Assembly (NCBI RefSeq): GCF_004217315.1
Contig: NZ_SGWR01000005.1
Span: forward strand, 1-64,000
DNA from: Corticibacter populi
Lineage (GTDB): Bacteria > Pseudomonadota > Gammaproteobacteria > Burkholderiales > Burkholderiaceae_C
DNA length: 64,000 bases
Direction of reading: 5' to 3'
Part shown: positions 46,131-64,000 of the stretch, piece after piece
How the letters are laid out: every line of letters starts with the position of its first letter
Numbering within the stretch: position 1 is the first letter of the stretch
The notes under the pieces: generated by a model
Seen by the model: the letters and a program-made list of their open reading frames with translations, nothing else
What the model was told of the DNA's origin: nothing
Database searches by the model: none
Made by a program: the position numbers and the translations under genes

Positions 46131-46634
46131 ATGGCGCAGGATCCTCACATCGTTTTTCTCGGCCACCGTCAGGAATTGCTGGCGTGGCTTATGCGCCATC
46201 TTCGCGAGCGGGAGCAGGCCGAGGATGTGGTGCAGGAGTTGTACCTGCGCTACGTCCAATATGCGTCCACCCACGTGATAGAGGACTCGCGCGCTTACCT
46301 GTTCCAGATGGCGCGCAACATGCTGATTGATCTGAGGCGCCAGCAGCAGGCAAGGCCGACCGAGTCGCTCGGCCACGACGAATTGGTGCTGGTCTCTGCG
46401 CCTGACACCGCACCCGGGCCCGAGCAAATTGCGGCCGCACGGTCGCGGCTGCGCCAACTGGTGGCGTGTCTCGAACAGCTGCCGGAGCTGACCCAGCAGA
46501 TATTTCTGCTCAATCGGGTCCATGACATGAGCTACAAGGAAGTCGCCGACCAACTGGGGGTTTCCGTCAGTACGGTCCAGAAGCACCTTACGCGTGCCCT
46601 GGCCCATGTGACCGAGCGGATGAAGCCCCACTGA
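46131..46634 (+). CDS. FecI-type ECF sigma factor, first copy
   Basis: A 167-residue sigma-70 family regulator of the iron-uptake (FecI) type. Region 2 (ELLAWLMRHLREREQAEDVVQELYLRY) and region 4 helix-turn-helix (MSYKEVADQLGVSVSTVQKHL) are clear, linked by a short spacer. It should direct transcription of the receptor gene downstream when released by its FecR. A TACAAT -10-like box is at 46096 and an imperfect Fur-like stretch (AATGAGTTTTATTG) at about 46073-46088. FecR follows after 165 bases. Confidence 0.9.
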   Translation: MAQDPHIVFLGHRQELLAWLMRHLREREQAEDVVQELYLRYVQYASTHVIEDSRAYLFQMARNMLIDLRRQQQARPTESLGHDELVLVSAPDTAPGPEQIAAARSRLRQLVACLEQLPELTQQIFLLNRVHDMSYKEVADQLGVSVSTVQKHLTRALAHVTERMKPH

Positions 46635-46799
46635 GGTGTTTTGCACATATCCAGCCCACCATGACCACTCCAGGCCCTGCCGACGCCTTGATCACCCGGG
46701 GCATGAATTACGCGATTGCGCCCGTGCATACGTCTTCATTGCATCGACCACAAAAAACGGCCGACAGCAGCGTTCCCGTCATCCCCACGCCTTGAAAAC

Positions 46800-47936
46800 A
46801 TGCCAAGATTCCGAGCAAACGGCGCACCCACGCCATCTTCAGCCTCCCCCGGTGATATGCCCGTGGCCGAGCAGGCCGCTGCTTGGGTGGTCGCACTGGA
46901 TGGTGAGCAGTGTCCCGGACAGCAGCGTGCATTCGAGCAATGGCTGCAGGCGTCGGAGTTGCATCGCAGTGCCTATGAACAGGCACTGCAGAACTGGCTG
47001 ATGGCTGCGCAACTGCGGCAGATGCCTGAGCTGCTCGATGAGCTGATGCCCGAGTTGCCCATGCAAGTTTCAGATGGTCTTTCTGCCGGGCCAGTCGCGC
47101 AGCCGCACATGCCGGCGCGGACGCAGACACGGAAGCAGATGCACATGTCGACGACGGCGGAGCAGCCTTCGGCGTGGTCGTCCGCCTGGACAAGGCAGGT
47201 CCGCCGCGCGGGCATGCTGGCCACTCTGGCAGTGGCAGTGCTGGTGGGCGGGCTATTGTCCTGGTCCGGTGGCGATCCATACACGGCTGTGCTGGCCGAC
47301 TATCGCAGCGCCACGGGCGAGATCCGCGACGTGCAGCTTTCTGATGGTTCCACCGTCCGGCTCGACTCGGCCAGCGCGATTGCCGTGCACTATGGCCAGG
47401 ACCAGCGCCGCATTGAATTGCTCAAAGGCCGGGCCCTGTTCTTGGCGGCGCCGATTGGCGCTGCTGCAGCGGGAGGACGACCTTTTGTCGTGGCAACAGA
47501 CGATGGCCGCACCCAGGCGCTGGGCACGCAATTCATCGTCGAGCGACTGGGCCGCCAGACCGTCGTCACCGGCGTCGAGCATCACATCGCGGTGGGCACC
47601 CATGGCATGCCGCTCGCCGACGCCGTCATTCTCGCGCCAGGACAGAGCGTGCGCTACGACGAAAATGGGCTGGGGCCGGTCGAAAGCATCCCGCTGGCCC
47701 AGGCGCAGTCCTGGGAGAAGGGCATGCTGCTGTTCGACGACGCACCGCTGCAGGAAGTGCTGGCGCAATTGGAGCGCTACCAGGGCGGACGCATCGTGCT
47801 CCGGGCCGAGGCGATGGCGCAGCGCCACGTCAGCGCCTCCGTGCCCGCGCAGGACATCAGGGCAGGCCTTGACGCCATTGCCGCCGAACTGGGCCTGCGT
47901 GTGCAGCACCTGCCGCTGCTGACGGTGTTGTACTGA
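46800..47936 (+). CDS. FecR-type anti-sigma regulator, first copy
   Basis: A 378-residue inner-membrane regulator. Cytoplasmic DUF4880 domain (AEQAAAWVVALDGEQCPG, residues about 20-75), a single transmembrane segment (MLATLAVAVLVGGLLSW), then the periplasmic FecR domain (DVQLSDGSTVRLDSASAI, GTQFIVERLG) and a C-terminal STN-like portion that meets the receptor. ATG 46800 is preferred; ATG 46857 would also retain the domain. A long linker rich in Thr, Met and Gln precedes the membrane segment. It relays receptor occupancy to the sigma factor. Confidence 0.88.
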   Translation: MPRFRANGAPTPSSASPGDMPVAEQAAAWVVALDGEQCPGQQRAFEQWLQASELHRSAYEQALQNWLMAAQLRQMPELLDELMPELPMQVSDGLSAGPVAQPHMPARTQTRKQMHMSTTAEQPSAWSSAWTRQVRRAGMLATLAVAVLVGGLLSWSGGDPYTAVLADYRSATGEIRDVQLSDGSTVRLDSASAIAVHYGQDQRRIELLKGRALFLAAPIGAAAAGGRPFVVATDDGRTQALGTQFIVERLGRQTVVTGVEHHIAVGTHGMPLADAVILAPGQSVRYDENGLGPVESIPLAQAQSWEKGMLLFDDAPLQEVLAQLERYQGGRIVLRAEAMAQRHVSASVPAQDIRAGLDAIAAELGLRVQHLPLLTVLY

Positions 47937-47954
47937 GTGGGATGAGCCATGCAT

Positions 47955-47974
47955 GCCAGGGCTTCCTGGCTTTT
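47955..47974 (+). terminator. Terminator between fecR and the receptor gene
   Basis: GCCAGG (47955-47960) and CCTGGC (47965-47970) form a hairpin with a four-base loop followed by TTTT. It separates the regulator genes from the receptor, so the receptor should have its own promoter. Confidence 0.65.
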
Positions 47975-48014
47975 CTGGTGCATACGTCATTTAGTAATAA
48001 GAAAAAGAATAAAA

Positions 48015-48139: not shown

Positions 48140-51082
48140 ATGAGCGAACCCATTCGCGCGGCGGGAGAACATGCGCTGCCACCAGAGTTTGCGGCGTTTG
48201 CTTCGCGCATGCCTCGCATGCCGCGCAAGCCATTGGCGGTTTTCGGGCGGCTCGGCTGCGCAACGCTGGCCCATGTCGTCATCGCGATGCTGGTTGCGGC
48301 CACGGCTACCGTTCGTGCACCGGCGGTGCGAGCGCAGTCAGCCACCCAGGTCGCCGTTGTCGCCGCAAGCCATGACTTCGCACTGCCAGCCTCGGACTTG
48401 AGCCAGGCTTTGCTGCAGGTGGGAGGCACCGCAGGCATCCGCGTGGTGTTCGACCCGCAATCGGTACAGGGTCTGCACACCATTGGAATCCAGGGACGCT
48501 TCACGGTCGAGGAGGCGCTGCAACGTCTTTTGCAGGGCACTGGTCTGGCGCATCGATACACCGATGGCGGCACCGTGGTGCTTGAACAGGCGGCGGGAGC
48601 TGGCAGGGCGGGGCAAGCGGCTGGCCAGGCGTCCGAGTCCCTGCCCGTCGATGGGGTGGTCGCCACGGCATCACTCAATGAAGTGGTCGTCACCGCCACA
48701 CCGGATGACGACATCCTGACCAAGGACCAGACTTTTCAAGAGGCACGCTCGACCAGCGTCCTATCGCGCGACGACATCGAGCGTTTTCGCGGCACCTCGG
48801 TGGGCGACATCTTCAAGGGCAGCACCGGCGTGCTGGTGGGCGAAAACCGCAACAGCGGCGGCCTGGACATCAACATCCGCGGCATGCAGGGGCAGGGGCG
48901 CGTGCCCATCCTCGTCGACGGCGCGCGGCAGGAAACCACCGTCTATCGCGGGTACTCGGGCGTCAGCTCGCGCAGCTACATCGACCCCGATCTGATCGGC
49001 GGCATACAGATCGACAAGGGCCCCGTCATGTCGGCCGATGGCACGGGCGCCACAGGCGGCCTGGTGAGTATGCGCACCATCAATGCCGACGATATCGCCA
49101 AGCCCGGCAAGAGCTTCGGTTTGCGCCTCCGGGGTCAGGCCATTGGCAACACCACCGGCTCACCCATGGCGGCCGACACGCCCGCTGGCCTGCCGGCCGG
49201 TCTGTACTCCGGCAGCAGCAATGCCACTTACCGCACCGATTGCGCCACGCCCAGCCTCTGCTCCGGCCAGTACGCCCTGCCCACCGAGTGGGGCAACCCC
49301 GAGGGGCTGAACCGCCCCTCCACCTTCGATTTCAAGAACTGGGCAGGCAGCATCGCCGCTGCCAGGCGCTGGGAGAAGATCGACCTCGTGGCCGCCTACG
49401 CCCAGCGGCGCCAGGGCAACTACTATGCGGGCGAGCACGGTCCCGGGGCCTGGGTCGACACCGCCAGCCAGCGCAAGCTGCCCTTCTATACCGAGGTCTA
49501 TCCCACAGTCGAGGGCGCCTCCGTCTTCCAGACCGGCGAACGCATTCCTGGCACCAACTTCGAGAGCAAGTCCGGCCTGCTCAAGGGCAAGCTGTTTCTG
49601 CCGGCCGACCAGGAACTGGAACTCAGCTACCTGCGCTACAGCAGCGTCTACAGCGAGATCATGCCCTCGCAGATCCTGCGGGCTCTTGGCACGTCCTATG
49701 TCACCCAGCCGCGCAACAGTGACGTAGTGGCCCAGACCTACACCAGTCGCTACCGCTGGAACCCGTATGACCGCCCGCTCGTCGATCTGCGCGTCAACCT
49801 CTGGCACACCCGCACCAAATCCACCAACAACAGCCCCAGCGACACCGAGGTCGGGCTCTACAACAACGACCTGGAGCAATACCGCCGTACCGGTTTCGAC
49901 CTCAGCAACACCAGCACCGTGCGCCACCCCGGCAACTGGGGCGAGAGCCAGCTTCGTTATGGACTGGCCGTGCAGCGGGAAGACGTTGGCACCACCCAGC
50001 TGACCTATGACGTCCGCGACGCCGGGCGCGATGGCGACCGGCAGGAATACAGCGTGTTCGCGGCCTGGCAATACAAGCCCGTGCAAAGCATCACCTTCGA
50101 TGCCGGCTTGCGCCATACCCGCTTCAAGTCCTTTGACGCCAAGGGCATCACCGTCTACGACTCCGAGAGTTCGTACTGCACCGACGCCGATGGCGACGGC
50201 GCCTGCGACACCCTTGCCAGCCGCAACAAGAAAAGCGGCACCGCACCCATCGTCAGCCTGAGTTGGGAGCCGGGCAACCGCGGTCTGCAGTTCTATGGCC
50301 GCTATGCCGAAGCCTACCGCATGCCCAGCCTGTTCGAGAGCACCAGCGGCTACTCCTTCACTACCCAGCCGGACATCAACCTCAGCCCCGAGCACGCCAG
50401 GAACAAGGAATTCGGCATCAACTACCTCAAGGACGGTGTGCTGCGCAGCAACGACAAGCTGCGCCTGAAGTTCGCCTACTTCCGCAACGACATCAGCGAC
50501 TACCTCACCCGCACCACCGCCAACCTCTGGGAAGAGGGTGGCAGCACCAACTCGATCAGCACCGAGCTGGTCATGCGCAACATCCAGAGCGCCAGCTTCC
50601 ACGGCCTGGAACTCTCCGGCTCCTACGACCTTGGCGCGGTGTTCACCGAATTCGGCGCCACCAAGTACAACAAGATCGAGGTCTGTCACGCGGGCAGCTA
50701 CCGCGTCAACCCGTGCAACGACTACGGCATCGCCGGCAGCTACATCAACAACATGGTGCCGCCCAACTGGCACGGCAACCTCACGCTCGGCACGCGCCTG
50801 CTGCAGCGCAAGCTCACCCTGGGCGTGCGCGGCATCTTCATGGGCAAGCGCAATGCCGAGCCCGAATACAACAACGACACCTCGCGCAGCTTCCTGCGCG
50901 TCGTGCCCTGGCACTCCTACAAGGTGTTCGACTTCTTTGCCAGCTACAAGGTCAACGACAGCCTCAGCGTCGACTTCAACCTCGACAACTTCACCGACCG
51001 CTACTACATCGACGCGCTCAGCCTCGGCCTCATTCCCGCGCCCGGCCGCACTGCGCGCCTGAGCGCGACGCTGACGTTCTGA
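48140..51082 (+). CDS. TonB-dependent receptor with STN signalling domain, first copy
   Basis: A 980-residue outer-membrane transducer-receptor. Signal peptide with a long polar start, cleaved near residue 65 (VRA-QS); STN domain at about 77-150 (FALPASDLSQALLQVGG...IGIQGRFTVEEAL); TonB box EVVVTAT at about 181; plug domain (SVGDIFKGSTGVLV, NIRGMQGQGRVPILVDGARQ); 22-strand barrel ending in Phe. A barrel-wall motif EAYRMPSLFE is in the place of the FRAP box of haem receptors. AGGAAG precedes the ATG. With FecI/FecR upstream and a hemophilin-like gene downstream, haem-hemophore is the likely ligand. A paralogue is at 61847. Confidence 0.9.
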   Translation: MSEPIRAAGEHALPPEFAAFASRMPRMPRKPLAVFGRLGCATLAHVVIAMLVAATATVRAPAVRAQSATQVAVVAASHDFALPASDLSQALLQVGGTAGIRVVFDPQSVQGLHTIGIQGRFTVEEALQRLLQGTGLAHRYTDGGTVVLEQAAGAGRAGQAAGQASESLPVDGVVATASLNEVVVTATPDDDILTKDQTFQEARSTSVLSRDDIERFRGTSVGDIFKGSTGVLVGENRNSGGLDINIRGMQGQGRVPILVDGARQETTVYRGYSGVSSRSYIDPDLIGGIQIDKGPVMSADGTGATGGLVSMRTINADDIAKPGKSFGLRLRGQAIGNTTGSPMAADTPAGLPAGLYSGSSNATYRTDCATPSLCSGQYALPTEWGNPEGLNRPSTFDFKNWAGSIAAARRWEKIDLVAAYAQRRQGNYYAGEHGPGAWVDTASQRKLPFYTEVYPTVEGASVFQTGERIPGTNFESKSGLLKGKLFLPADQELELSYLRYSSVYSEIMPSQILRALGTSYVTQPRNSDVVAQTYTSRYRWNPYDRPLVDLRVNLWHTRTKSTNNSPSDTEVGLYNNDLEQYRRTGFDLSNTSTVRHPGNWGESQLRYGLAVQREDVGTTQLTYDVRDAGRDGDRQEYSVFAAWQYKPVQSITFDAGLRHTRFKSFDAKGITVYDSESSYCTDADGDGACDTLASRNKKSGTAPIVSLSWEPGNRGLQFYGRYAEAYRMPSLFESTSGYSFTTQPDINLSPEHARNKEFGINYLKDGVLRSNDKLRLKFAYFRNDISDYLTRTTANLWEEGGSTNSISTELVMRNIQSASFHGLELSGSYDLGAVFTEFGATKYNKIEVCHAGSYRVNPCNDYGIAGSYINNMVPPNWHGNLTLGTRLLQRKLTLGVRGIFMGKRNAEPEYNNDTSRSFLRVVPWHSYKVFDFFASYKVNDSLSVDFNLDNFTDRYYIDALSLGLIPAPGRTARLSATLTF

Positions 51083-51174
51083 ATGTGAATAGCTGCTGCG
51101 ATGGCTAGCCGCACCACCGGATTTTTCATCAACCCGCCCACGCTCAACGGGCACTCATGCATAGGACATTCGCA

Positions 51175-53550
51175 ATGAAGCTCTCTCTGCGCAACCTGAT
51201 GGCAGGGCTGGGAACAGCCCTGTTCCTCGCCGCTTGCGGCGGCGGCGGGGATGACAGCCCCGCACCCACCGTCACTCCTCCCACGGCAGCCATCTCGGCC
51301 AGCGTCCAGAGCGTGCCGATCGGCACCGCCGTCACGCTCGACGGCAGTGGCAGCAGTACGCCCAATACCGGCAGCATCACCTATTCCTGGGCCCTGAGCA
51401 GCAAGCCCGATGACAGCGCGGTGGAACTCTCCGGCACCGCCGCCACCGTCAGCTTCACGCCGGATGTGGAAGGCGACTACGTGGCCGAGCTCACCGTCAA
51501 CGATGGCACGGCCACCAACAGCACCAGTCAGACCATCAGCGCCACCAATCCGAGCCCTGTAGCCGTCATCAGCCCCGCGAGCGCCGCCGTGCTGTTGGGC
51601 AAAACCGTCACGCTCGACGGCAGCGGCAGCCGCCCGCCCACCGGCAAGGACGCCAGCGCCCTGACTTACCAGTGGACGCTGACCGAGCAGCCCGATGGCG
51701 ACACCACCACTCTGGGCGATGCCACCGCATCCAGCATCAGTTTTCTGCCAGCTACCGTGGGCATCTATAGGCTCAGGCTGGTGGTCAGCTATGGAGACTT
51801 GACCAGCGAGGCCGGGGCCGAAGTCATCGTCAATGTCGCCAACAGCAGCCCGGTGGCTGTCGCCAAGATCAATGGCGAAGAGGTCACTGCCCTCACCGTG
51901 ACCAGGGGCAGTACCGTCAGCCTGGATGGCAACGCCAGCAGTGACCCCGATGGAGACATCCTGCACTATCGCTGGTCCTTTCCTGCCATTCTGAGCAGCA
52001 AGCGCATTCCACGCGCGTCCAATGCGGAAATCAGCAACCACACCAGCGCCCAGGCCAGCTTCGTGGCCGATGCCGTGGGTACTTTTTATGTGGATTTCAC
52101 GGTCTATGACCAGAGTGTTGCCACAACGAAGCAACTGACCATCACCGTTGTCAAGGCCGAGGCTGACACCAGCAACACCGCGCCAGTGGCCGTCATCGGA
52201 CTCTGGGGAGAGGACATAGATAGCTTGGAATGTGAAACAGGCGGCATGGGGACGATATGGCCGTATTGCACCATCTACGCATCCCACTCCTATGACGTGG
52301 ATGGCGGAACATGGACCTATGCTTGGAAGTACTGGAACAAGGAAGACACCGCCAAGGTGTATGAGGCGAGTGGCAGTACCATCAATGTGCCCGCGGCCAC
52401 TGCCGGCACATGGAGGATCGAACTCACACTCACCGACGCCCAAGGTGCGACCGGTACGGACAGTGTTGATCTGATCATCAAGAACGGCGCCAACGTCGCA
52501 CCCTCGGTGAGGGCCGCGGTTGAGCTTGCCAAGGTGCTGGTGGGCGATACCATCATCTTCGACGGCAGCGGCAGCAAAGACGACAACGACGACGAACTGA
52601 CCTATCAGTGGACACTGCGTGACCGGCCCGATGGCAGTAACGCCGTATTGAACGCCAGCGGCTCCACCGCAACCGTGGTGGCCGACCAGCCCGGCATCTA
52701 CAGTGCCGAATTGCTGGTGATCGACTCCAAGGGGGTGGCGAGCCGGAGCACTTCCACCAACTATTCAGTGGTCAATGTCTTTGCCAAAAAGACCAACAAC
52801 CCGCCAGTGGTCGGCAGCCTGGGTTTATCGCAATATGGCAAGGCGGAAGGCCAGGTCAGGATCATTGCGGATGGCGCAACAACCGCTGGGACGAATCTGT
52901 ACGCCAGCATATACGACCCGGATCAGGATACCCCGTTGTACTACGCGTGGACGGTTGCCAGCAGACCCGCAGGCAGTGCCGAAATAGCCGACTATTCCAG
53001 TTCGGTCGCCGTCACGGGCGGCTCGGCAACCGTTAATAGGGCATTTCCGTCGCTGATCGCGGGTGATTATGAAGTGGAGTTTCTCCTCAGCGATGGCGTG
53101 GAAACCAGCGCGGAATCGTTCACGCTCAGCGTGGTTCCACGCGAAAACTATCCAACCCTTTTGCTTGAGTACGCAGGTGTTCTCGGAGACGTGGTCAACC
53201 CGCCTGCAGATACCGCGGAATGGCTTCAGGCATTTTTACCAATCCGTAAATCCGGCGGTGTGTATGCAGTGGACGGCAGCACCAGCACCACCTCGATTGT
53301 TGCTTGGTATCGCCTGACGGCTTTCGACCAGGATTACACGATTACCGTGCAGGACAACTCCAGTGGCATTGTGACCCTGGTGCGAGGAGTGTCAGACGGT
53401 CAAATCATCCGCAAAGGCGAGTCGGTGATTTTCAGTGTCGCTTATGAGACGGAGCCGGCTTCCGCGTATGAGTTGAATGTGGTGGTGGGGGTCAAGGAAA
53501 GGGAAAGCCATTTCGTTTCCTGGATACAGACCGGCGCCGGAAGTGAATAA
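51175..53550 (+). CDS. PKD-repeat outer-membrane lipoprotein
   Basis: A 791-residue lipoprotein: signal peptide with lipobox LAAC (Cys at residue 21), then GGGGDDS, predicting outer-membrane sorting. The body holds about six PKD/Ig-like repeats of 90-115 residues, each with a VTLDGSGS-type strand, a YxWxL strand and a GxYxxELxVxD strand, then a C-terminal region of about 170 residues I do not recognise. ATG 51175 has AGGA seven bases upstream. It lies between receptor and hemophilin-like genes on the same strand. A surface adhesin or a host-haemoprotein binder would fit; neither is shown. Confidence 0.75.
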   Translation: MKLSLRNLMAGLGTALFLAACGGGGDDSPAPTVTPPTAAISASVQSVPIGTAVTLDGSGSSTPNTGSITYSWALSSKPDDSAVELSGTAATVSFTPDVEGDYVAELTVNDGTATNSTSQTISATNPSPVAVISPASAAVLLGKTVTLDGSGSRPPTGKDASALTYQWTLTEQPDGDTTTLGDATASSISFLPATVGIYRLRLVVSYGDLTSEAGAEVIVNVANSSPVAVAKINGEEVTALTVTRGSTVSLDGNASSDPDGDILHYRWSFPAILSSKRIPRASNAEISNHTSAQASFVADAVGTFYVDFTVYDQSVATTKQLTITVVKAEADTSNTAPVAVIGLWGEDIDSLECETGGMGTIWPYCTIYASHSYDVDGGTWTYAWKYWNKEDTAKVYEASGSTINVPAATAGTWRIELTLTDAQGATGTDSVDLIIKNGANVAPSVRAAVELAKVLVGDTIIFDGSGSKDDNDDELTYQWTLRDRPDGSNAVLNASGSTATVVADQPGIYSAELLVIDSKGVASRSTSTNYSVVNVFAKKTNNPPVVGSLGLSQYGKAEGQVRIIADGATTAGTNLYASIYDPDQDTPLYYAWTVASRPAGSAEIADYSSSVAVTGGSATVNRAFPSLIAGDYEVEFLLSDGVETSAESFTLSVVPRENYPTLLLEYAGVLGDVVNPPADTAEWLQAFLPIRKSGGVYAVDGSTSTTSIVAWYRLTAFDQDYTITVQDNSSGIVTLVRGVSDGQIIRKGESVIFSVAYETEPASAYELNVVVGVKERESHFVSWIQTGAGSE

Positions 53551-53666: not shown

Positions 53667-53764
53667 CGTTATTCAGGGCCAAGCTCGGAATCCATTGTCA
53701 GTATTTCCAGATGGCCTTTGAGGCCTCGGTCGTGCCACTGGTTCCTGCCTGCTTGGGAATGACG
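53667..53764. repeat. CGTCATT/AATGACG-type repeat, decayed copy C
   Basis: Begins CGTTATTCAGGGCC, has GGAATCCA at the expected place and ends GCTTGGGAATGACG; 98 bases. It matches the ends of copies A and B with several substitutions. Confidence 0.45.
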
Positions 53765-54234
53765 GGAGATCAGCGGGAATGCGGGGAGTGTTCGCAGGCA
53801 TGCCCGTATGAAATGGGTCTGATCGGCTCTTTGGGTGCAGGCACAGGCTGTTTGTCCCCGATCCGGGGCGCGGACGCGTGGGGTTTGGGGGGATGCGATC
53901 TCGGTCACGGCATTTGGCATGGCGGGAGACGGACACCGTATCCTTCCATCTCCATACGGATCCAGGGATTTTTTTGGTCTTCCCCAGTTTTTTGTCAGGG
54001 AGTGTAAATCCAGATAGATATTTTTGAAATACGCATATGGCAGTTCAGCCAGTCAATGACAGCGGAATGAATCATTTGTGTTGAATTGATGATGAAATTG
54101 ATATGAAAAATCCTTTGCAATGCAAAGGCGTGGAATTTTTGTTTTTAATATCTGGCATATCAGTCGGAGGGGATTAATCATTCTTCCAAATAATATTGGC
54201 ACTATTATCATGGGTAATTTGGATTGCTTGGAAA

Positions 54235-54352: not shown

Positions 54353-55087
54353 ATGAAGAAGACAGTCATTGCTACCGCACTGCTGGCCGTCGTAGGCGTT
54401 GCCAGCGCATTTGACTCCGTCGGTGAGACGACGAAGTCCTTTCTGAATGTCGGCGGATCGACTTTCGCGGACACCCATTTCCATGGGCCCAATGGCGCGC
54501 CGGGCGTCGGATTTGCTGATTACGTCATCAGCCTGAGCAGCATTTCGTTCTCCGCGCTGCAAGTAGGCTCGGAGTCTGGGTTCAACCGCTACCAGTTGCT
54601 GGGTTACACCCATCCGGGTGTTGATGGCATCGAGAACTACAACTTCAACTGGGCGCAGGTGCCGACCGGCAACCAGGAAGTGTATTTCGGCCTGGTCACC
54701 AACACCGACAGCAGCGACACCGCCGCCTTCTACGTGGGCGATCGCACGGGCTGGGCCATCCCGACCAGCAACACCAGCTACACCACGGTGGCGCTGGTTG
54801 AGACGACTGGCAACGGCAGTTCCCCTGCCGTGCTGCAAGGTACGCTGAATCTGGTCAATGGCAATCTGAATACCGCTGGCGCGGGCCTGACGGATGGCAC
54901 CAACACCCTGGTGATCAATACCGCTGTGAATGCGGGCGCCGGTACGTTCAGCGGTACTTCTGCCTACAACAGCGATTCCGGTACTGCTAGCGGAGCTTTC
55001 TTCGGCAGTGGCTCCAGCAGTGCCGTGGCGGGTGTTGCCGATGGTGGTTCCGCCTACCAGGCAGCCTTCGGCGGCATTGCGCAATAA
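54353..55087 (+). CDS. Hemophilin-like secreted protein, probable Slam substrate
   Basis: A 244-residue protein with a clean Sec signal peptide (first 19 residues, cleaved after VASA) and no lipobox. The mature protein lacks cysteine and is rich in Gly, Ser and Thr. Its C-terminal 100 residues read as a small beta-barrel ending GTASGAFFG...AFGG, the hairpin and FGG end shared by Slam-exported proteins such as TbpB and hemophilins. His42, His44 and His87 in the N-terminal half are possible haem ligands. ATG 54353 has AAGGAG at six bases. The Slam gene follows and a haem oxygenase is next, so a haem-scavenging hemophore is the best reading; haem binding is not proven by sequence. Confidence 0.72.
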   Translation: MKKTVIATALLAVVGVASAFDSVGETTKSFLNVGGSTFADTHFHGPNGAPGVGFADYVISLSSISFSALQVGSESGFNRYQLLGYTHPGVDGIENYNFNWAQVPTGNQEVYFGLVTNTDSSDTAAFYVGDRTGWAIPTSNTSYTTVALVETTGNGSSPAVLQGTLNLVNGNLNTAGAGLTDGTNTLVINTAVNAGAGTFSGTSAYNSDSGTASGAFFGSGSSSAVAGVADGGSAYQAAFGGIAQ

Positions 55088-55408: not shown

Positions 55409-55516
55409 CGTCATTTCGGGTTTGACCCGGCATGCAGTGGCGCCGTGTGCATTGGTCGCCGTTTCCTTCAGCGCCACAATCGGGCCACCTGGATTCCCGC
55501 CTTCGCCGGAATGACG
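55409..55516. repeat. 108-bp repeat bounded by CGTCATT / AATGACG, copy B
   Basis: Begins CGTCATTTCGGGTTTGACC and ends CGCCTTCGCCGGAATGACG; nearly the same length as copy A. It lies directly upstream of the Slam gene; read in frame it gives the WIPAFAGMT peptide commonly mis-annotated as coding, which shows that the Slam start is downstream. Confidence 0.65.
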
Positions 55517-55543
55517 GTGGAAGGTGCGGGGAAAGGTTCGGAA

Positions 55544-57049
55544 ATGGCCGGGGAATGTGCGCGAATGACGGGGACGTTTTTGAGCAAAGCCGCAGGGGCT
55601 ATTGGCCTGGCTGGCTGGCTGGCTTTCACAAGCCCTGCGGCACATGCGCAGCAGGATACGGCCGACCGGCTCTGGCAGGGCTCGGAGCAGCAGTCCCAGC
55701 AGTTGCGCCAGCAGGCGGCGCCCGGGCCCGACGAGGAAGAAGACGAGACGGTCAGCGAATCCTACCGGCAGGCGCTGGAAGCCATGACGCAAAGCCCGCG
55801 CACGCGCCTGCAGCGGCTGATGCTGGAAGTGCTGGGCGCGGTGAACCGCCGCGACTGGTTCGGCGCGGACCGGTCGTTGCGCCAGTACCAGCAGGTGCCG
55901 CAGCATGATCCGGCGCTGGCCGTTTTCGTCGATGCCAGCCGCGCCGCCGCCGAGGGTGATTTGGCCCGCGCCATCGAGGGCTACCGCGAGGTGATGCGCA
56001 GCAACCCGCAGTTCGTGCGCGGCGAGTTGGACCTGGCCCGCGCGCTGTATGCCGATGGCCGCCTGCGCGATGCCCGCGAGGTGTACGCGCACCTCAAGGG
56101 CCAGCAGGTGCCGCCGGTGATTGCCCGGCACGTGGATGAATCGCTGGCGAACATTGCGCGGCGCACGCGCTGGCAGTTGAACCTGTCGCTGGCGCTGGTG
56201 CATGAGGACAACCTGAATAGTGCCTCGACGGTGGTCGAGCAGTGCGCGTGGGTTCTTCAAGGGGTTTGCCTGCGGAACAACCCGGGCCACGAGATCCATG
56301 GCACGGGTCTGAACTTCGAGGCCACCATCAACAAACTGTGGCCGCTGGCGGGCAATCATGCGGTGATGCTGCGCAGCATCAACTACGGCAACACCTACCG
56401 GGAGGAGGGGGACTACGACAACCTGGTCTCCACCACGTACCTGGGCTACCAGTACGGCTCGGCCCGCAACCAGCTCCAACTGCTGCCGCTGTTCGAGTTC
56501 AACCGGGAGTATGGCGAGAAGATCTACCACGCCTTTGGCGCGCGCGCGAGCTTTCGCCGGCAGTTGACGGCGCGTGCCCAGGTCGAGGCGAGCTACGAGT
56601 ACAAGGTACGCAATTTCTCGCGCGACTACCAGACGCTGGAGGGCAATTTCACCGGCCTGAGCCTGTTTGCCAACTACGCCGTCAAGCCCGATCTCGTGGC
56701 CTATGGCGGCTTGTACTGGCGCGACAACGAGGCGCAGCAGTCTGTTTACTCCTACCGCGAGAAGGTGGCCCGGCTGGGCGTCTACAAATCCTTTGCCGGG
56801 CAGGCCACCTTGAACGTGGCCTACGGCCACCGCCTGAAGGTGGCGGAAGCCCGCAATGCCATTTTTGGCGGCAGGCGCCAGCGTGACCATGAGAACAGCC
56901 TCTACGTGCAGGCCACCTTCCCGAGCCTGCAGTGGCAGGGCTTGACGCCGGCCGTCAGCTACGAACACCGTCGCAACAACAGCACCATTCCCCATGCGTA
57001 CAACTACCGCAAGAATCGCGTCACGCTGGGCTTCAACAAGGTGTTTTGA
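55544..57049 (+). CDS. Slam-family (DUF560) outer-membrane translocon
   Basis: About 501 residues. Signal peptide ending SPAAHA (residues to about 35), an N-terminal helical TPR region (about 75-205; AVFVDASRAAAEGDLARAIEGY, NPQFVRGELDLARALYADGR), then a 14-strand-type barrel from RWQLNLSLALVHEDNLN to the terminal Phe. This two-part plan is that of the surface lipoprotein assembly modulator, which moves TbpB- and hemophilin-type proteins across the outer membrane. ATG 55544 has GGGGAAAGG upstream; ATG 55565 gives a neater signal peptide. Earlier in-frame ATGs run through a repeat and are rejected. The substrate is probably the small protein just upstream. Confidence 0.85.
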   Translation: MAGECARMTGTFLSKAAGAIGLAGWLAFTSPAAHAQQDTADRLWQGSEQQSQQLRQQAAPGPDEEEDETVSESYRQALEAMTQSPRTRLQRLMLEVLGAVNRRDWFGADRSLRQYQQVPQHDPALAVFVDASRAAAEGDLARAIEGYREVMRSNPQFVRGELDLARALYADGRLRDAREVYAHLKGQQVPPVIARHVDESLANIARRTRWQLNLSLALVHEDNLNSASTVVEQCAWVLQGVCLRNNPGHEIHGTGLNFEATINKLWPLAGNHAVMLRSINYGNTYREEGDYDNLVSTTYLGYQYGSARNQLQLLPLFEFNREYGEKIYHAFGARASFRRQLTARAQVEASYEYKVRNFSRDYQTLEGNFTGLSLFANYAVKPDLVAYGGLYWRDNEAQQSVYSYREKVARLGVYKSFAGQATLNVAYGHRLKVAEARNAIFGGRRQRDHENSLYVQATFPSLQWQGLTPAVSYEHRRNNSTIPHAYNYRKNRVTLGFNKVF

Positions 57050-57121: not shown

Positions 57122-57775
57122 ATGAGCACACAACAGGCCCACCACCATCATCATCACCATGCCGGATTCGCGGCGGCTGGCCGCCGCGCGGCCCTCAAGG
57201 AAGCGACACGCGGCGTTCATGAAAAGCTGGACCGCCGCATCATGGCGTTCAACCCGTTCGCCGACCGCCAGCGCTACCAGGCCTTTTTGCTGACCCAGTA
57301 CCGTCTGCACCGCGATGTCGAGGCCTTCTACGTGGCGCCGCAGCTCAATGCCGCGCTGCCGCAACTGGCCGAGCGCAGCCGGCTGGCGCTGGTAGAGCTG
57401 GACCTGCACGACCTGGGCGTGGCGCTGCCGCTGCCCGGCCTGCCCGAGCCGCGTTTCGCCGCCGGGAAGGATGTGGACGTCGCCACTGCGCTGGGCTGGC
57501 TGTATGCGGTCGAGGGCTCCAACATTGGCGCGGCCTTCCTGCTCAAGGCGGCTGCGGCGCTGGAACTCGGTGGCGGGTTCGGCGCGCGCCACCTCGCGCC
57601 GCACCCCGATGGCCGGGCCGCGCACTGGCGCGACTTCATCGCGCAGTTCGACGATGTGGCGCTTCCGGCAGCCGATGAGGCGCGCTGCGTCGAGGGTGCG
57701 AACGCGGCCTTTGCGCAGGCGCTGGGCTATGTGGAACAGTACTGCGCGCTGCCGGCCGATGGCGTGCGGGCCTGA
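57122..57775 (+). CDS. Biliverdin-producing haem oxygenase
   Basis: A 217-residue all-helical enzyme that opens haem to biliverdin, CO and iron in the cytoplasm. The proximal His is His33 in ATRGVHEKLD, and the distal-helix glycines are in YAVEGSNIGAAFLLKA; length and pattern fit the HemO/PigA branch. Unusual is a natural run of seven histidines (residues 7-13) before the conserved core. No clear Shine-Dalgarno is seen at ATG 57122. It follows the Slam gene by 72 bases and precedes the TPR gene by 16, so it is part of the same unit. Confidence 0.88.
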   Translation: MSTQQAHHHHHHHAGFAAAGRRAALKEATRGVHEKLDRRIMAFNPFADRQRYQAFLLTQYRLHRDVEAFYVAPQLNAALPQLAERSRLALVELDLHDLGVALPLPGLPEPRFAAGKDVDVATALGWLYAVEGSNIGAAFLLKAAAALELGGGFGARHLAPHPDGRAAHWRDFIAQFDDVALPAADEARCVEGANAAFAQALGYVEQYCALPADGVRA

Positions 57776-57791
57776 ATCGGGAGGCCCGCCC

Positions 57792-59291
57792 GTGCGCAAT
57801 GCCCGCCTCATCCGTTCCGGTTTTCGATTCCTCCTCCGATTCCGGTCCACGCCGCGTTGGCAACGGCTTGTGGCGGCTTTGCTGCTGGCCATTGCTGCCG
57901 CTACGGGCTTGGGATCCGGTATGGCGCTGGCTGCCGCCGATGATGCCGCGGCCGGCCAGCGGCAATGGCAAAGCCTGTACGCGCGGGCGCAGGATGCCTA
58001 TGGCAGGCGCGACTGGACGGGCGCCGAGCAGGCCGCTCGGCAGGCATTGGCGCAGGCCCGTGCCGGCCAGGGTCAGACCGGCCCTTTTGTGGCCAGCAGC
58101 CAGAACATCCTGGCGCTGAGCCTGCAGCGCCAGGGGCGGCTCCAGGAGGCGGCCGAACTGCTCGGCGAAGCCTTGGAGACCAGCCGGCAGACGCTGGGCC
58201 GGCATGCCAACACCGCCTCGCTGGCCTTTAACCTGGGCAGCGTGCAGGAAGAGCTGGGGCCAGGGCAAACTGCAGACCAGCAGCATGCGCTGGCCAGCTA
58301 TGAACAGGCCTTGCGGATTGCCGACGCACTGCCCGGCGACACGGCGGCCACCCAGGTGGGACAGCAGGCGCTGGCGGCATTGGGCCGCCTGCATGCAGAG
58401 CGTGGCGAGGCGCAGCGCGCCGATGCCTACAACCGCCGCCTGTTGCAGTCGCAGGCCAGCCTGCCGCCAGATCTGCGCGCCGATGCGCTGCTGCGCCAGG
58501 GCATGGCGTTGACGCAACAGGGCCAGTGGTCCGAGGCGCAGGCCGCGCTCGAAGAGAGCCTGCAGCTGTTCGAGGCCGCGCACGGCGCGCGGGATGCGGC
58601 TGTGGTGCCGGCATTGACTGCACTGGCGAATCTGCACCACGCCAGCGGCCAGCATGAGCGGGCCGTGCCGCTGCACCAGCGGGCGATGGACATCCTGCGG
58701 CAGCAGACGGTGCAAGGGGGGGCGCAGGAGGCGGTCCTGGCCGGGCACCTCAACGAACTGGCCTTGTGGCAGTTGCAGGACAGGCAGTTCGAGCCAGCCC
58801 GCGCAGGCTTCGAGGAGGTGCTGGCGCTGCTGGAGCGGCAGAATGGCGATGCGAAGACGGCGGGCGAGAAGACCCTGGCGCGGGCGGACGTCGTCGGCAA
58901 TCTGGCGCAACTCGAAGGGCAGGCCGGGCAGGACGATGTATCCAGGGATCTGCACCGCCAGGCCTTGGCGCTGTACCGCGCCGCGCCACAGGGCCTGCCG
59001 GCGCAGTTGGGGCAGGCGCGCAGCCTGAACTTTCTGGCGGCTTTCGACTATCGCCGCAGGCGCTTTGCGGAGGCCGAACCGCAATTCCTGCAGGCGCTGG
59101 CGCTGATGGAGCAGGCGCTGGGCACGGCGGACGAGCGGCTGCTGCCGGTGTTGCAGAACCTGGAGGCGCTGTACCTGAGCCAGGGCCGGGCCGAGCAGGC
59201 CAGGCCGTACCAGTTGCGGGTGCATGAGCTGCAGCGCAAGCAGCAAGCCGGGCAGCAGGCTGGGGATGCGGCTGGTACGGCAGGGCCATGA
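57792..59291 (+). CDS. Secreted TPR-repeat protein
   Basis: A 499-residue protein with a signal peptide (hydrophobic LVAALLLAIAAATGLGSG, cleaved near MALA) followed almost entirely by tetratricopeptide repeats of the kinesin-light-chain kind (for example NTASLAFNLGSVQEELG, VVPALTALANLHHASGQHERA, LLPVLQNLEALYLSQGRAEQA). The GTG at 57792 is the best start: GGGAGG sits seven bases upstream. It should be a periplasmic scaffold. It lies between haem oxygenase and DUF454 genes and overlaps the latter by four bases. Function in haem uptake or Slam export is unknown. Confidence 0.8.
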   Translation: MRNARLIRSGFRFLLRFRSTPRWQRLVAALLLAIAAATGLGSGMALAAADDAAAGQRQWQSLYARAQDAYGRRDWTGAEQAARQALAQARAGQGQTGPFVASSQNILALSLQRQGRLQEAAELLGEALETSRQTLGRHANTASLAFNLGSVQEELGPGQTADQQHALASYEQALRIADALPGDTAATQVGQQALAALGRLHAERGEAQRADAYNRRLLQSQASLPPDLRADALLRQGMALTQQGQWSEAQAALEESLQLFEAAHGARDAAVVPALTALANLHHASGQHERAVPLHQRAMDILRQQTVQGGAQEAVLAGHLNELALWQLQDRQFEPARAGFEEVLALLERQNGDAKTAGEKTLARADVVGNLAQLEGQAGQDDVSRDLHRQALALYRAAPQGLPAQLGQARSLNFLAAFDYRRRRFAEAEPQFLQALALMEQALGTADERLLPVLQNLEALYLSQGRAEQARPYQLRVHELQRKQQAGQQAGDAAGTAGP

Positions 59292-59728
59292 ACGACGAGC
59301 AACGCGAGGACAGGGCGCATGTGGCGGCAGTCCGCCCCGGACTGCCGCAGCAGCCATTGGCGCGCTCGCGCCTGCTGCGTGCCGTCTGGCTGACCGTGGC
59401 GGTGCTGAGCCTGGGCGTGGCCTGCGTGGGCGTGGTGGTGCCTGGGCTGCCGAGCACGGAGTTCGTGCTGCTGTCTGCCTGGGCGGGGGCGCGCGGCTCG
59501 AGCCGGTTCCACAGCTGGCTGCTGAGGCACCGGCTGTTCGGGCCAATGCTGCGCAACTGGCGCGATGGCAGAAAGGTCAGCCGGCGTGCCAAGTGGGCAG
59601 CGAGCGTGTCGATGCTGTTGTGCTCATGGCTGATGCTGTGGACGATCCCGCACCGGGTGCCGGTGTGGATCGCCATCGGCTGCATGGCGGGGGTACAGTT
59701 CTGGCTCTGGCGCAGGCCCGAGCCTTGA
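59288..59728 (+). CDS. DUF454 (YbaN) family inner-membrane protein
   Basis: A 146-residue membrane protein with hydrophobic segments at about 31-50, 96-112 and 117-135. The family motif VVPGLPSTEFVLLSAW and RHRLFGPMLRNWRDG are intact. DUF454 genes are often found beside haem oxygenase or haem uptake genes, as here, but the role is not known. The start overlaps the TPR gene stop (ATGA). Confidence 0.85.
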   Translation: MNDEQREDRAHVAAVRPGLPQQPLARSRLLRAVWLTVAVLSLGVACVGVVVPGLPSTEFVLLSAWAGARGSSRFHSWLLRHRLFGPMLRNWRDGRKVSRRAKWAASVSMLLCSWLMLWTIPHRVPVWIAIGCMAGVQFWLWRRPEP

Positions 59729-60062: not shown

Positions 60063-60710
60063 ATGTTTGATTCTCTCTCTGACCGCGCTTCGCCGGGGTG
60101 GGGCGCGCATACGCCGCACCGGCAGATCGCCAAGCCATCCGTCGAGAGCCGCCGAGGCGACGCCGCCGGAACGGACGCTTCGGCCGATACCTGGTTGGGT
60201 ATCGACATTCATTGGCTCTACGGCACCTTGCTCCAGGCGCTGCTCAAGAAGACCCAATGCCCGCATCAGGCCGGAGATGTGCTGCATGACGCGCTGATCC
60301 GCTACGCGTCCACGGCCATGCGCAAGCCGGTCGGGCAGCCCCATGCGTATCTTTGGCGCGTTGCCGAATCGGCGCTGATCGATCAGCACCGGCGGGCCAG
60401 GCGCTTCGTGCCACTGCCGGAACTGCAGGAGGGCGAGGACGGCTGCGCCTCCGAGCTGCAGGATACGGCGCAGCCATCCATGGAAACGCTGATGCATTTG
60501 CGCCAGCGTCTCGAGCATTTGCAGAAGCTCTTCGATTGCCTTCCGCCCCGTTGTCGCGAGACATTCTGGATGTTGCGCGTCGAGGGCTACAGCCAGGCGG
60601 AGATCGCCGAGCGTCTGGGCATCAGCATCAAGACCGTCGAGGGACATGTGGCGCGGGCGCTGCTGCAGCTCGTCGCATGGCGCGAGGCACACCGGGACGC
60701 ATTGCCATGA
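60063..60710 (+). CDS. FecI-type ECF sigma factor, second copy
   Basis: A 215-residue sigma factor. Region 2 (WLYGTLLQALLKKTQCPHQAGDVLHDALIRY) and the region 4 helix-turn-helix (YSQAEIAERLGISIKTVEGH) are clear. The first 45 residues are a polar extension without recognisable homology, absent from the first copy; a later start is possible but no better ATG was seen. The stop overlaps fecR2 by four bases, unlike the spaced first pair. Confidence 0.87.
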   Translation: MFDSLSDRASPGWGAHTPHRQIAKPSVESRRGDAAGTDASADTWLGIDIHWLYGTLLQALLKKTQCPHQAGDVLHDALIRYASTAMRKPVGQPHAYLWRVAESALIDQHRRARRFVPLPELQEGEDGCASELQDTAQPSMETLMHLRQRLEHLQKLFDCLPPRCRETFWMLRVEGYSQAEIAERLGISIKTVEGHVARALLQLVAWREAHRDALP

Positions 60711-61711
60711 ACAGCAGCAAGGTTCACAGGGAGGCGGCGCAATGGTTTGCCCACATGCAGAACGTGGCGCAGGACGATGTCTCGGAGCGAGCCCGCTTCG
60801 AGCGGTGGTTGCTGGCCCATCCGATGCACACGGCTGCCTACCAGCGGCTGGCGCTGATCTGGGAGGATTTCGATTCGCCGCAGCGCCTGGCCTCCCTGGC
60901 GTCTGCCGCCGCGTATGGGCAGGGCGTTGCCCGGCGCTCGCGCCGCAAGGCCATCAAGGGGGGGCTGGTGGGCGCGGTCGCTGTGCTCGGCGTCGGCACC
61001 GTAGGTTGGCGCGTGTTGCAGCATGGTGGTGCGCCGGACTACCACGCCACATTGCATGTGCCGGCCGGCCAGGCGGCGAGCGTGCATACGCTGCCCGATG
61101 GCAGCCGTGTCACGCTCGGGGCCGCCACGCGCCTGAGCATCCGCTACGAACGCGATGCGCGGATCATCGAGTTGCACCAGGGCGTGGCCGCTTTCGAGGT
61201 GCAGGCCGACGCCTTGCGCCCGTTCGTGGTGAACGGGGAGTACACCAGGGTCACGGTGCTGGGTACGTATTTCGTGGTCGACCGGCTCACCGATACGCTC
61301 ACCCGGGTCAGCGTTGAACGCGGCAGGGTGCGGGTGGCGCGCATGCGGCCATGGTTCGGCAAGCGCTTCTGGCAGGAACGGGAGCACTGGATACTGGGGG
61401 CCGGCGAGGTCATTGACGTGCGCGAGCAGGGCGGCGAGCGGCAGGACATTCCCGCTACCGACGGCTTCGCCTGGCAACGCAATGCGCTGGTGTTCTCCGG
61501 CGCGACCCTGCAGGAGCTTGCGACGCGCCTGAGCCGCTATAGCCGCCGGCCGGTGCTGGCGCCGCAGGAGCGGCGAGGCAATGGGCCGGTGCCGCGGATC
61601 GTCGCGGTGGTGCAGTTCGGCGACATCGAGCAGTTCATCGACCGGCTGCCCGCGCTGGCTGCGGTCGATGTCGAGCAGGACGATGCCGCCGTCTACCTGT
61701 ATCCGCGCTGA
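60707..61711 (+). CDS. FecR-type anti-sigma regulator, second copy
   Basis: A 334-residue regulator with an N-terminal DUF4880 domain (REAAQWFAHMQN...FERWLLAHPMHTAAYQRL), a transmembrane segment (GLVGAVAVLGVGTVGW), the periplasmic FecR domain (VHTLPDGSRVTLGAATRLSI, VLGTYFVVDRL) and a C-terminal receptor-facing part. The ATG overlaps the sigma factor stop, so the two are translationally coupled. It precedes a receptor gene by 135 bases. Confidence 0.88.
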   Translation: MNSSKVHREAAQWFAHMQNVAQDDVSERARFERWLLAHPMHTAAYQRLALIWEDFDSPQRLASLASAAAYGQGVARRSRRKAIKGGLVGAVAVLGVGTVGWRVLQHGGAPDYHATLHVPAGQAASVHTLPDGSRVTLGAATRLSIRYERDARIIELHQGVAAFEVQADALRPFVVNGEYTRVTVLGTYFVVDRLTDTLTRVSVERGRVRVARMRPWFGKRFWQEREHWILGAGEVIDVREQGGERQDIPATDGFAWQRNALVFSGATLQELATRLSRYSRRPVLAPQERRGNGPVPRIVAVVQFGDIEQFIDRLPALAAVDVEQDDAAVYLYPR

Positions 61712-61846
61712 ACGCCCTGGATCAATTGTCAAAACGAATGATGTTGCAAATTAATACAATTTAGACCCAGGGTGGCAGGAGTGGTTCTTCGTCATTGAGA
61801 GTGGGCGCATTGACGCGCCACTCAACCGCAACCGAAGAATCACTGC

Positions 61847-64000
61847 ATGCACTCCTCACTCCGCGCGGGTCTGGCCGTCGGCGCTGCCATGGTGCTGGCC
61901 GCTGCTGCCCAGGCACAGTCCATCGAGTTCAACATTTCGCCGCAGCCGCTGGCCGAGGCCATCGGCCAGTTCGGGCTGCAGACGGGTCTTTCGGTCGTCG
62001 CCGATTCCGGTCTGACGGCCGGCAAACGGTCGGCTGGTGTGCGCGGCCGGTTTGCCGCTGCCGATGCACTGGCCCTGCTGTTGCGCGATACCGGGCTGGA
62101 GGGGCGAGTCGATGGCCGCTTCGTGACCATTGTCCGCACGCTGCCGATGCCGCTCGCCAGCGAAGATAGCCTGCCGGAAGTGAGCGTGACGGCCAGCGCC
62201 ATGGATACCGAAGACAAGGACAGCACCTACCGGAGTGCCGGGTCCACCAATGTGCTGACGCGCGATGAGATCGAATTGTTCCGCGGCACCTCGGTCGGCG
62301 ACATCTTTAAGGGTACGGCCGGCGTTCTTGTGGGCGAGAACCGCAACAGCGGCGGGCTGGATGTGAACATCCGCGGCATGCAGGGGCAGGGGCGCGTGCC
62401 GGTGATCGTCGATGGCGCGCGGCAGGAAACCACGGTGTATCGAGGGTATGCGGGCGTGGCATCGCGCAGCTATGTCGATCCAGACCTGATCGGCGGTATC
62501 CAGATCGACAAGGGGCCAGTGATGGGGGCGCAGGGGACCGGTGCCACCGGCGGCTTGGTCAGCATGCGAACCATCAACGCCGACGACATCGTGCGTCCGG
62601 GCAAGGACTTCGGCCTGCGTGTGCGTGCGCAGGCCATCGGCAACAACAGCGGCTCGGTGCCGCAGCCAGGCACCCCATCGGGATACAACACCGGCGGAGA
62701 TGCGGCCGGAGGAACCGCCGGCGTGTATCGCATCAATTGCGTGATTGCCAGCCTGTGCCAAGGGCCATTCGATATCGCCCATGCACAGGGCTCCACGGAG
62801 GGCATGAACCGCCCAGGCCTGTTGAAGCCCAAGAGCTGGGCGGGCAGCGTTGCGCTGGCCAAGCGCCTTGAGGCCGTTGATCTGGTGGCCGCCTACGCGC
62901 AGCGTCGGCAGGGCAACTACTATGCGGGCACCAAGGGGCCAGCACCCTACCTGGACCTCTCCGATACCACCAACCGGGGCTTCTATACCGAGGTGCGTCC
63001 GGAGATTGTCGGCGCCACGCGATTCCGTGCCGGCGAGCGCATCGCCAACACCAATTACGAGAGCAAGTCCACGCTGCTCAAAGGCAAGCTCTACCTGGCC
63101 GACGCGCACGAACTGGAGTTGAGCTACCTGCGCTATGACAGCACCTATGGCGAGTTGATGCCTTCCCAGCTGATCTGGCTCGGCCAGGTGCGCCAGACCA
63201 GCAACAGCGAGGTCACCGCCAATACCTACGCGGGTCGCTATCGCTGGAACCCGGCTGACGATGCCATGCTCGACCTGCGCGCCAACCTGTGGCATACCGA
63301 TACCACCAGTCTCAACCGCAACTATTCCGAAGGGGTGTGGAGCAACATGTTCGACATCGGCACCGAGCGTTACAAGCGCTGGGGTGCTGATCTGAGCAAC
63401 AGCATGCAATTCGACCAATGGGGCGGCATCAAGCTCGATTACGGCCTGGCCTACCAGACCGAGAAGGTGCATGGCGATGGTGATGCCAATTCCTTCTCGG
63501 CGGGTGGCCGCGCTGGCAGCCGCAAGGAACTGAGCCTGTTCACTTCGGCGCAGTGGAAGCCGGCTGCCAAGTGGACGCTGGAAGCCGGTATCCGCCATAC
63601 CCGCTTCCAGTCGCAGGACGACAAGCCACGCTATGTGACTGTGGAGAGCGATTACTGTGTCAATCCCGATGCGGAGGGCGATTGCGATCCTGTCATGATG
63701 AAGTCCAGGCGCAGTGGTTCAGCGCCGCTGCTGAGCCTGCAATGGGAGCCGCGTCCGGGGTTGCAGGTGTATGGGCGCTACGCAGAGGCGCTGCGCATGC
63801 CCAGCTTGTTCGAGACCACGGCCGGATTCTCCGTTGCACCGTCGCAGGACATCCACCTCAAGCCCGAACACACCAGGAACAAGGAAATAGGCATCGGCTT
63901 CATGAAGGATGGTCTTTGGCGCAGCAGCGACAAGTTTCGCGCCAAGCTGGCGTACTTCCGCAACCACACCAAGGACTATCTGACGCGCACCATTCCCAAT
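61847..64000 (+). CDS. TonB-dependent receptor with STN domain, second copy (3' end outside window)
   Basis: Open to the window edge, 718 codons visible. Signal peptide to about residue 24 (AAAAQAQS), STN domain (FNISPQPLAEAIGQFGLQTG), TonB-box-like EVSVTAS, plug and most of the barrel. The plug is nearly identical in pattern to the first receptor (TSVGDIFKG, GQGRVPVIVDGARQETTVYRGY), as is the EALRMPSLFE barrel motif, so the two are paralogues. Differences concentrate in extracellular loop regions (GSVPQPGTPSGYN), suggesting a different ligand or host protein. It follows fecI2-fecR2, its probable regulators. Confidence 0.9.
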   Translation, partial: MHSSLRAGLAVGAAMVLAAAAQAQSIEFNISPQPLAEAIGQFGLQTGLSVVADSGLTAGKRSAGVRGRFAAADALALLLRDTGLEGRVDGRFVTIVRTLPMPLASEDSLPEVSVTASAMDTEDKDSTYRSAGSTNVLTRDEIELFRGTSVGDIFKGTAGVLVGENRNSGGLDVNIRGMQGQGRVPVIVDGARQETTVYRGYAGVASRSYVDPDLIGGIQIDKGPVMGAQGTGATGGLVSMRTINADDIVRPGKDFGLRVRAQAIGNNSGSVPQPGTPSGYNTGGDAAGGTAGVYRINCVIASLCQGPFDIAHAQGSTEGMNRPGLLKPKSWAGSVALAKRLEAVDLVAAYAQRRQGNYYAGTKGPAPYLDLSDTTNRGFYTEVRPEIVGATRFRAGERIANTNYESKSTLLKGKLYLADAHELELSYLRYDSTYGELMPSQLIWLGQVRQTSNSEVTANTYAGRYRWNPADDAMLDLRANLWHTDTTSLNRNYSEGVWSNMFDIGTERYKRWGADLSNSMQFDQWGGIKLDYGLAYQTEKVHGDGDANSFSAGGRAGSRKELSLFTSAQWKPAAKWTLEAGIRHTRFQSQDDKPRYVTVESDYCVNPDAEGDCDPVMMKSRRSGSAPLLSLQWEPRPGLQVYGRYAEALRMPSLFETTAGFSVAPSQDIHLKPEHTRNKEIGIGFMKDGLWRSSDKFRAKLAYFRNHTKDYLTRTIPN

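Follow-up and report, generated by a model that had tools for sequence, protein, structure and literature searches.

What do the genes at the end of this stretch of DNA build, and why is a lipoprotein with PKD repeats encoded between their haem receptor and a small secreted protein? The stretch (hereafter the window) comprises 64,000 nucleotides of Corticibacter populi, i.e. bases 1-64000 of contig C5 (NZ_SGWR01000005.1) in a genome of 4.2 Mb. The first-pass annotation saw here a Slam-hemophilin haem-acquisition island with a receptor, FecIR signalling, and haem oxygenase, and our analyses support this, with the small protein related to hemophilins by profile. At the level of sequence, we find the components, their order, a second module, and a PKD gene that recurs behind the receptor. 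The core is a known kind of system; the recurring PKD gene and the pairing of hemophore-bearing and hemophore-free modules are new. We consider it probable that these genes form an island for haem piracy like the hemO cluster of Acinetobacter, with hemophore-fed TonB haem uptake, FecIR signalling, a PKD docking partner, and a hemophore-free module 2.

Two modules, one with a putative hemophore gene

All the genes named in the annotation lie on the + strand and in the order described there, with domain matches for every gene, and given the E-values of these matches their identities are not due to chance. Module 1 reads as follows:

46131..46634, + strand: extracytoplasmic function (ECF) sigma factor, FecI type (Pfam Sigma70_r2, Sigma70_r4_2 2.1e-20)
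46716..47936, + strand: FecR-type signal relay (FecR 3.5e-18, DUF4880)
48140..51082, + strand: TBDR1, TonB-dependent haem receptor with STN domain (STN 2.8e-13, Plug, barrel; TIGR01785 339.4 bits, cut-off 316.85)
51157..53550, + strand: PKD1, PKD-repeat lipoprotein directly 3' of TBDR1 (PKD families; lipobox by eye)
54353..55087, + strand: divergent hemophilin-like secreted protein, candidate Slam cargo (profile against PDB; signal peptide and no lipobox, by eye)
55565..57049, + strand: Slam / type XI secretion outer-membrane protein (PF04575 2.2e-47, TPR_Slam 4.1e-16; start by eye)
57122..57775, + strand: haem oxygenase 1 (PF01126 2.5e-19)
57790..59291 (start approximate, by eye), + strand: TPR protein with an apparent signal peptide (TPR_12 3.6e-34)
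59288..59728, + strand: DUF454 (YbaN-type) membrane protein (PF04304 4.2e-35)

The Slam protein matches PF04575 over positions 1-288 of 288 (162.4 bits, cut-off 22) and TPR_Slam with 59.7 bits (cut-off 35.2), i.e. it joins a SlipAM barrel to an N-terminal TPR region, as in Slam / type XI outer-membrane proteins, and its cargo candidate adjoins it. Its start is more likely near 55565, from the signal peptide read by eye. To call the hemophore system "complete" was an overstatement, as there is no TonB or FecCD permease among the open reading frames read in the island (ExbBD was not searched for), and the genome has such genes at other places (TonB_C gives 4 matches over cut-off, FecCD 14). The haem oxygenase 1 gene encodes seven consecutive His at its start (window 57122-57160), a native stretch absent from the module 2 copy, and the gaps flanking the hemophilin gene contain segments (55430-55560 and 53700-53800) that look like a dispersed repeat, both by eye.

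The first pass also proposed a duplicated signalling-receptor module. A second FecI, FecR, and receptor are indeed present, but the extent was underestimated: this is a second, nearly whole cluster that runs past the window end and has its own PKD, haem oxygenase, TPR, and DUF454 genes:

60063..60710, + strand: ECF sigma factor, FecI type (Sigma70_r4_2 1.3e-15)
60707..61711, + strand: FecR-type relay (FecR 4.4e-15)
61847..64000, continuing to 64549, + strand: TBDR2, TonB-dependent haem receptor with STN domain (STN 2.1e-8, 34.3 bits, cut-off 28.4; Plug, barrel)
64649-67222, beyond the window: PKD2 lipoprotein (PKD domains)
67296-67931, beyond the window: haem oxygenase 2
about 67837-69378, beyond the window: TPR2
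69329-69808, beyond the window: DUF454-2

Module 2 has no hemophilin and no Slam. The piece of TBDR2 in locus L004 scores 354.9 bits with TIGR01785, and both modules have the makings of FecIR surface signalling, i.e. an ECF sigma factor, FecR, and STN on the receptor.

The core by itself is nothing unusual: the same order is found in the Acinetobacter baumannii hemO cluster and on two Novosphingobium replicons. As given in the available part of PMC10483418, hemO (heme cluster 2) lists an ECF sigma factor, anti-sigma factor, hphR, hphA, hsmA, a TonB-related protein, haem oxygenase, and a hypothetical protein. From sigma factor to haem oxygenase, parts and order are those of the window, whereas the TonB-related gene precedes haem oxygenase, PKD and TPR are not in that list, and the window adds a terminal DUF454 gene and the second module. 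HphA, HsmA, and HphR serve haem uptake in A. baumannii, where hemophore, Slam, and receptor were tested, according to the portion of PMC8560813 available. In Novosphingobium (NZ_CP141945.1 and NZ_CP017076.1), FecI, FecR, receptor, hemophilin, Slam, and haem oxygenase stand in the window's order, followed by a TonB match on one replicon and by DUF454 on the other; unlike the window, the 16.7-kb stretches have no PKD or TPR match. Around cluster 1 type XI secretion genes, haem oxygenase (137/1,111) and DUF454 (118/1,111) are reported as enriched in the part of PMC12282271 we could draw on.

The island is rare (3/250 family genomes). Window-type hemophilins are found in 2/10 genus and 3/250 family genomes, this genome being counted in both, and full-length PKD occurs in the same three family genomes, with 17 further ones giving partial matches only (20/250 in total). 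TBDR1 at 1e-100 is found in two of the 250, the contig of the third (G025) starting about 1 kb before PKD, and at 1e-60 in 3/300 order genomes, two of which belong to another family. Slam is more widespread (25/250). Among the matches listed, this genome is the only one for the hemophilin profile in 258 class genomes and for the PKD profile in 399 order genomes. Co-occurrence, proposed as a check at first pass, holds throughout the four hemophilin loci (this genome, G004, G025, and G031) for Slam and PKD, and in part for haem oxygenase and TPR (3/4) and DUF454 (2/4); a TPR gene goes with haem oxygenase in G025, G031, and each of the two modules here. At G025:C38 4861-7047 (L016), one TAG lies within the Slam match and one within the haem oxygenase match, from decay or assembly error.

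The genome has two more Slam loci. L005 (G000:C1:240000-256000, at 838-8595) comprises FecR, receptor, lipoprotein, and Slam, without a hemophilin match; its lipoprotein has ELWxxDGT repeats (TIGR04534, 100 bits) and may be an unusual Slam cargo. L006 (G000:C1:458000-476000, at 4828-10586) holds a receptor, a Slam-dependent lipoprotein-type protein (NF041636 80.7 bits), and Slam, an arrangement also seen in G022 (L049).

A PKD lipoprotein behind receptors of two lineages

PKD1 is a protein of 797 amino acids (aa) with the lipobox LAAC followed by GGGG (by eye). Its last 145 aa match no Pfam family, and the C-terminal domain has no PDB match below 0.1. In a structure model, much of positions 40-530 scores 70-88 and the C-terminal part is low. 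No TbpB-type barrel family, as in Slam-dependent surface lipoproteins, is found in PKD1 or PKD2, and PKD as a Slam cargo is not favoured on this ground.

The first pass treated the PKD gene as a local enlargement of the system, which did not hold up, as PKD recurs in other hemophilin regions. It lies directly behind all 5 receptors of one lineage, i.e. those of module 1, module 2, G004, G031, and the plasmid pPsKG3_1. These five form one side of a branch supported at 98/99 (16 rows) and 100/99 (17 rows), in trees whose rows are our own choice, the long row L005 being omitted from the larger one. PKD also immediately precedes hemophilin in the 4 loci of window-type hemophilin, the receptor side of G025 being cut by the contig end.

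A distant case is pPsKG3_1 of Pseudoalteromonas sp. KG3 (NZ_CP098525.1), which has a receptor of the same lineage (46% identical to TBDR1), a full-length PKD relative, FecIR, haem oxygenase, and DUF454. The relative, an 810-aa "hypothetical protein", can be aligned with PKD1 for the greater part of its length (28%; hhalign prob 100). Unlike in the window, the hemophilin and Slam genes lie some 12 kb off, grouped with another receptor, TonB, ExbB, and ExbD are present, and there is no TPR match. On this cheese-rind plasmid, the whole haem-uptake region (144579-162281; L064, L072) has transposase genes on both sides.

Two Vibrio loci, in V. campbellii LJC015 (NZ_CP050465.1) and Vibrio sp. THAF190c (NZ_CP045339.1), both lacking annotation in the stretch concerned, repeat the window's order of FecI, FecR, receptor, PKD, hemophilin, and Slam. 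They differ in having ExbB, ExbD, and TonB after Slam, two (V. campbellii) or three (THAF190c) PKD proteins of about 440-470 aa in place of one of 797, no match to haem oxygenase, TPR, or DUF454 in the stretches read, and a receptor of another lineage, grouping with L006, L049, and L072 (100/100, 17-row tree). Between the V. campbellii hemophilin and the V. harveyi HphA of known structure (8gm3), only 5/219 residues differ. One V. campbellii PKD protein aligns with PKD1 from the lipobox through the first repeats (prob 99.9), and the C-terminal parts of the five Vibrio proteins align with those of the beta-receptor PKD proteins (A7 versus A6; prob 94.4, E 9.2e-8). In THAF190c, two of the three PKD genes are tandem near copies (L074, 6374-9244).

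These Vibrio receptors rule out a PKD gene confined to one receptor clade, and the 17-row receptor tree needs two changes for PKD; in the PKD tree itself, no branch reaches the required support. In the other receptor lineage, PKD adjoins 2/7 (L073 and L074) and is absent next to L006, L049, L072, L094, and L095, of which the last two were placed in the lineage by tblastn, outside the tree; L072 has none adjoining, but its plasmid carries one elsewhere. We also rejected the idea that PKD generally goes with FecI-linked receptors, there being none behind the sister receptors L065-L071 (two of them accompanied by Slam and hemophilin-like genes), nor in L005, L006, L049, L094, or L095. We likewise rejected a general association of PKD with Slam: of the 24 further Slam matches, 12 were fetched, and none of these has a PKD match at 1e-5, in a search that is insensitive to distant genes and missed even the known Slam in 5 of those 12 stretches.

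In a plasmid collection, 11 of 72,556 records match hemophilin. Three of these have PKD in the region, the two Novosphingobium records have none, and the other six (4 Acinetobacter, 2 Proteus) are not among the PKD-matching records of the collection. Conversely, 5 records match PKD1 at 1e-15, including Pseudoalteromonas THAF3, and 3 of them hold a hemophilin region; 6 of the 20 plasmid receptor records were opened. In the open-licence literature, nothing was found that brings hemophilin and PKD together, and PKD domain with FecI and TonB-dependent leads to Kerstersia gyiorum only. There, the available part of a table (PMC6461280) lists FecI, FecR, FecA, and a PKD domain protein in two places, with receptors annotated as citrate type, a likeness by annotation only. 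PKD is thus an optional but recurring part of such loci.

Could the PKD lipoprotein instead be a passenger of the operon, an adhesin or envelope protein of general function with no part in haem uptake? PKD proteins are common among the family genomes, in most of the 20 as parts only, and in 8 of the 17 genomes with partial matches that were examined, no receptor match is seen at 1e-5 (two of the stretches being short). In addition, a Vibrio-like protein of Sphingomonas lacks such neighbours, and PKD is missing from the hemophilin loci of Novosphingobium, G022, and this genome's L006. However, the position of PKD in the gene order is shared by beta- and gammaproteobacteria and by receptors of two lineages, PKD is retained in module 2, and its C-terminal domain is common to the A7 and A6 sets. 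A hemophilin region in 3/5 records, against a hemophilin match in 11 of 72,556, also speaks against a mere passenger, which we regard as unlikely.

The secreted protein as a divergent hemophilin homologue

The small protein is, by sequence comparison, a divergent hemophilin homologue with predicted haem binding. Alone, it matches one solved protein, 6om5 (3.6e-6, phmmer), over the barrel part only, and none of the curated hemophilin models (HphA_N, HphA_C, NF041636) over cut-off. A profile of four orthologues matches solved hemophilins over clamp and barrel, i.e. 8gmm at 3.6e-17 over 30-255 and 8gm3 at 1.2e-13, the remaining five PDB matches being at 0.23 or worse. Only once the L006 paralogue, itself just above the NF041636 cut-off (80.7 bits, cut-off 80), joins the profile are 7re4, 8glo, 6om5, and 9us7 reached at 2.9e-14 or better. 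Orthologues L009 (22.1) and L014 (28.5) pass Pfam HphA_N (cut-off 22) and L013 fails; none of the three has an NCBIfam match at 0.01. By hhalign, the window protein aligns with the Pseudoalteromonas hemophilin (prob 97.4, E 1.3e-11), which in turn matches 8gmm at 1.6e-55.

The haem ligands of HphA are H43 and H106, as stated in the accessible part of PMC8560813. Candidate ligands in the window protein are H42 or H44, and H87. H42 pairs with HphA H43 in the paralogue-including profile alignment (chain 9us7), and H87 reaches HphA H106 through the Pseudoalteromonas hemophilin and 8gmm alignments, though the paralogue-including profile shifts that loop.

A changed ligand, i.e. another porphyrin or a metal complex carried by a hemophilin relative, would agree with the failure of the window protein and its orthologue L013 against HphA_N, and with a loop that reads HFHGPN here and GPH in two other orthologues. 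This seems improbable to us, as TBDR1 and the L004 piece of TBDR2 both score above the haem/haemoglobin receptor cut-off (TIGR01785), haem oxygenase lies in the same gene run as the secreted protein, and H42 and H87 can be paired with both HphA ligands, the latter by a two-step alignment whose loop is shifted in the paralogue-including profile.

A proposed model of hemophore docking

In the haem-piracy island that we propose, the hemophilin-like protein would pass through Sec and then Slam to the outside, bind haem, probably by two His, and deliver it to TBDR1, which would import it using TonB made elsewhere in the genome. The STN domain of the loaded receptor would signal via FecR to FecI, turning up the cluster, and haem oxygenase would open the ring in the cytoplasm and free the iron. 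The PKD lipoprotein, a presumed lipid-anchored chain of Ig-like domains, would most likely lie alongside the receptor at the outer membrane and help the hemophore or another haem carrier dock; it is best regarded as a candidate docking partner of receptor and hemophore. Module 2, which lacks its own hemophore, would do the same job either with a shared hemophilin or on other sources of haem. The least probable alternative, that module 2 is a decaying duplicate, would account for its lack of hemophilin and Slam but sits poorly with seven open frames, domains intact where tested, and a protein identity to module 1 of 87% for haem oxygenase, 89% for DUF454, 57% for TPR, 56% for the receptors, and 37% for PKD (DNA similarity is limited to haem oxygenase at 84%, TPR-DUF454 at 74%, and two receptor parts at 71%).

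Several results weigh against a haem-piracy island with a PKD docking partner. The G004 locus is without haem oxygenase, its copy being on another contig, and PKD is absent behind 7/7 sister FecI-linked receptors (L065-L071). The Sphingomonas PKD protein, which resembles the Vibrio ones along almost their entire length, has no hemophilin, Slam, or FecIR match within 17 kb, and an annotated TonB receptor is encoded on the opposite strand at a distance of about 3 kb. In the 10 gaps of the island scanned, no Fur box rises above mononucleotide shuffles, and Fur control was set aside for this reason; promoters in the gaps are not in excess. As for the small protein, it matches no Pfam family when searched alone, scores 43.4 bits with NF041636 (cut-off 80), and its four-orthologue profile does not reach HphA 7re4, 8glo, 9us7, or 6om5 at E 1. 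The structure prediction suggested at first pass for the product at 54353 gave a mixed result: AlphaFold gave a poor model from two rows (pLDDT 37.6), without a Foldseek match at 1e-3 or better, yet the first and sole high-probability match of that model is V. harveyi HphA 8gm3 (E 6.6e-3).

A broader proposal is more tentative, and we give it somewhat less than even chances: PKD lipoproteins with the common C-terminal domain may take part, so far unnoticed, in hemophilin-type haem uptake by beta- and gammaproteobacteria. They would form a lipid-anchored docking rod behind FecIR-controlled receptors of two lineages, unlike the Slam-exported co-receptors TbpB and HpuA, with hemophilin and Slam as a plug-in.

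The characterised hemophilins named in the part of PMC12282271 at hand come from Xenorhabdus, Acinetobacter, and Haemophilus, and the window protein adds a divergent branch to them. Of more consequence is the PKD lipoprotein: with its gene found repeatedly between those of receptor and hemophilin in bacteria far apart, it is a direct candidate for a role in bringing the loaded hemophilin to the receptor. The two modules of one genome offer a comparison with and without a hemophore and, if the PKD lipoprotein is indeed a partner in uptake, this genome would hold hemophore-bearing and hemophore-free versions of the same machine, side by side.

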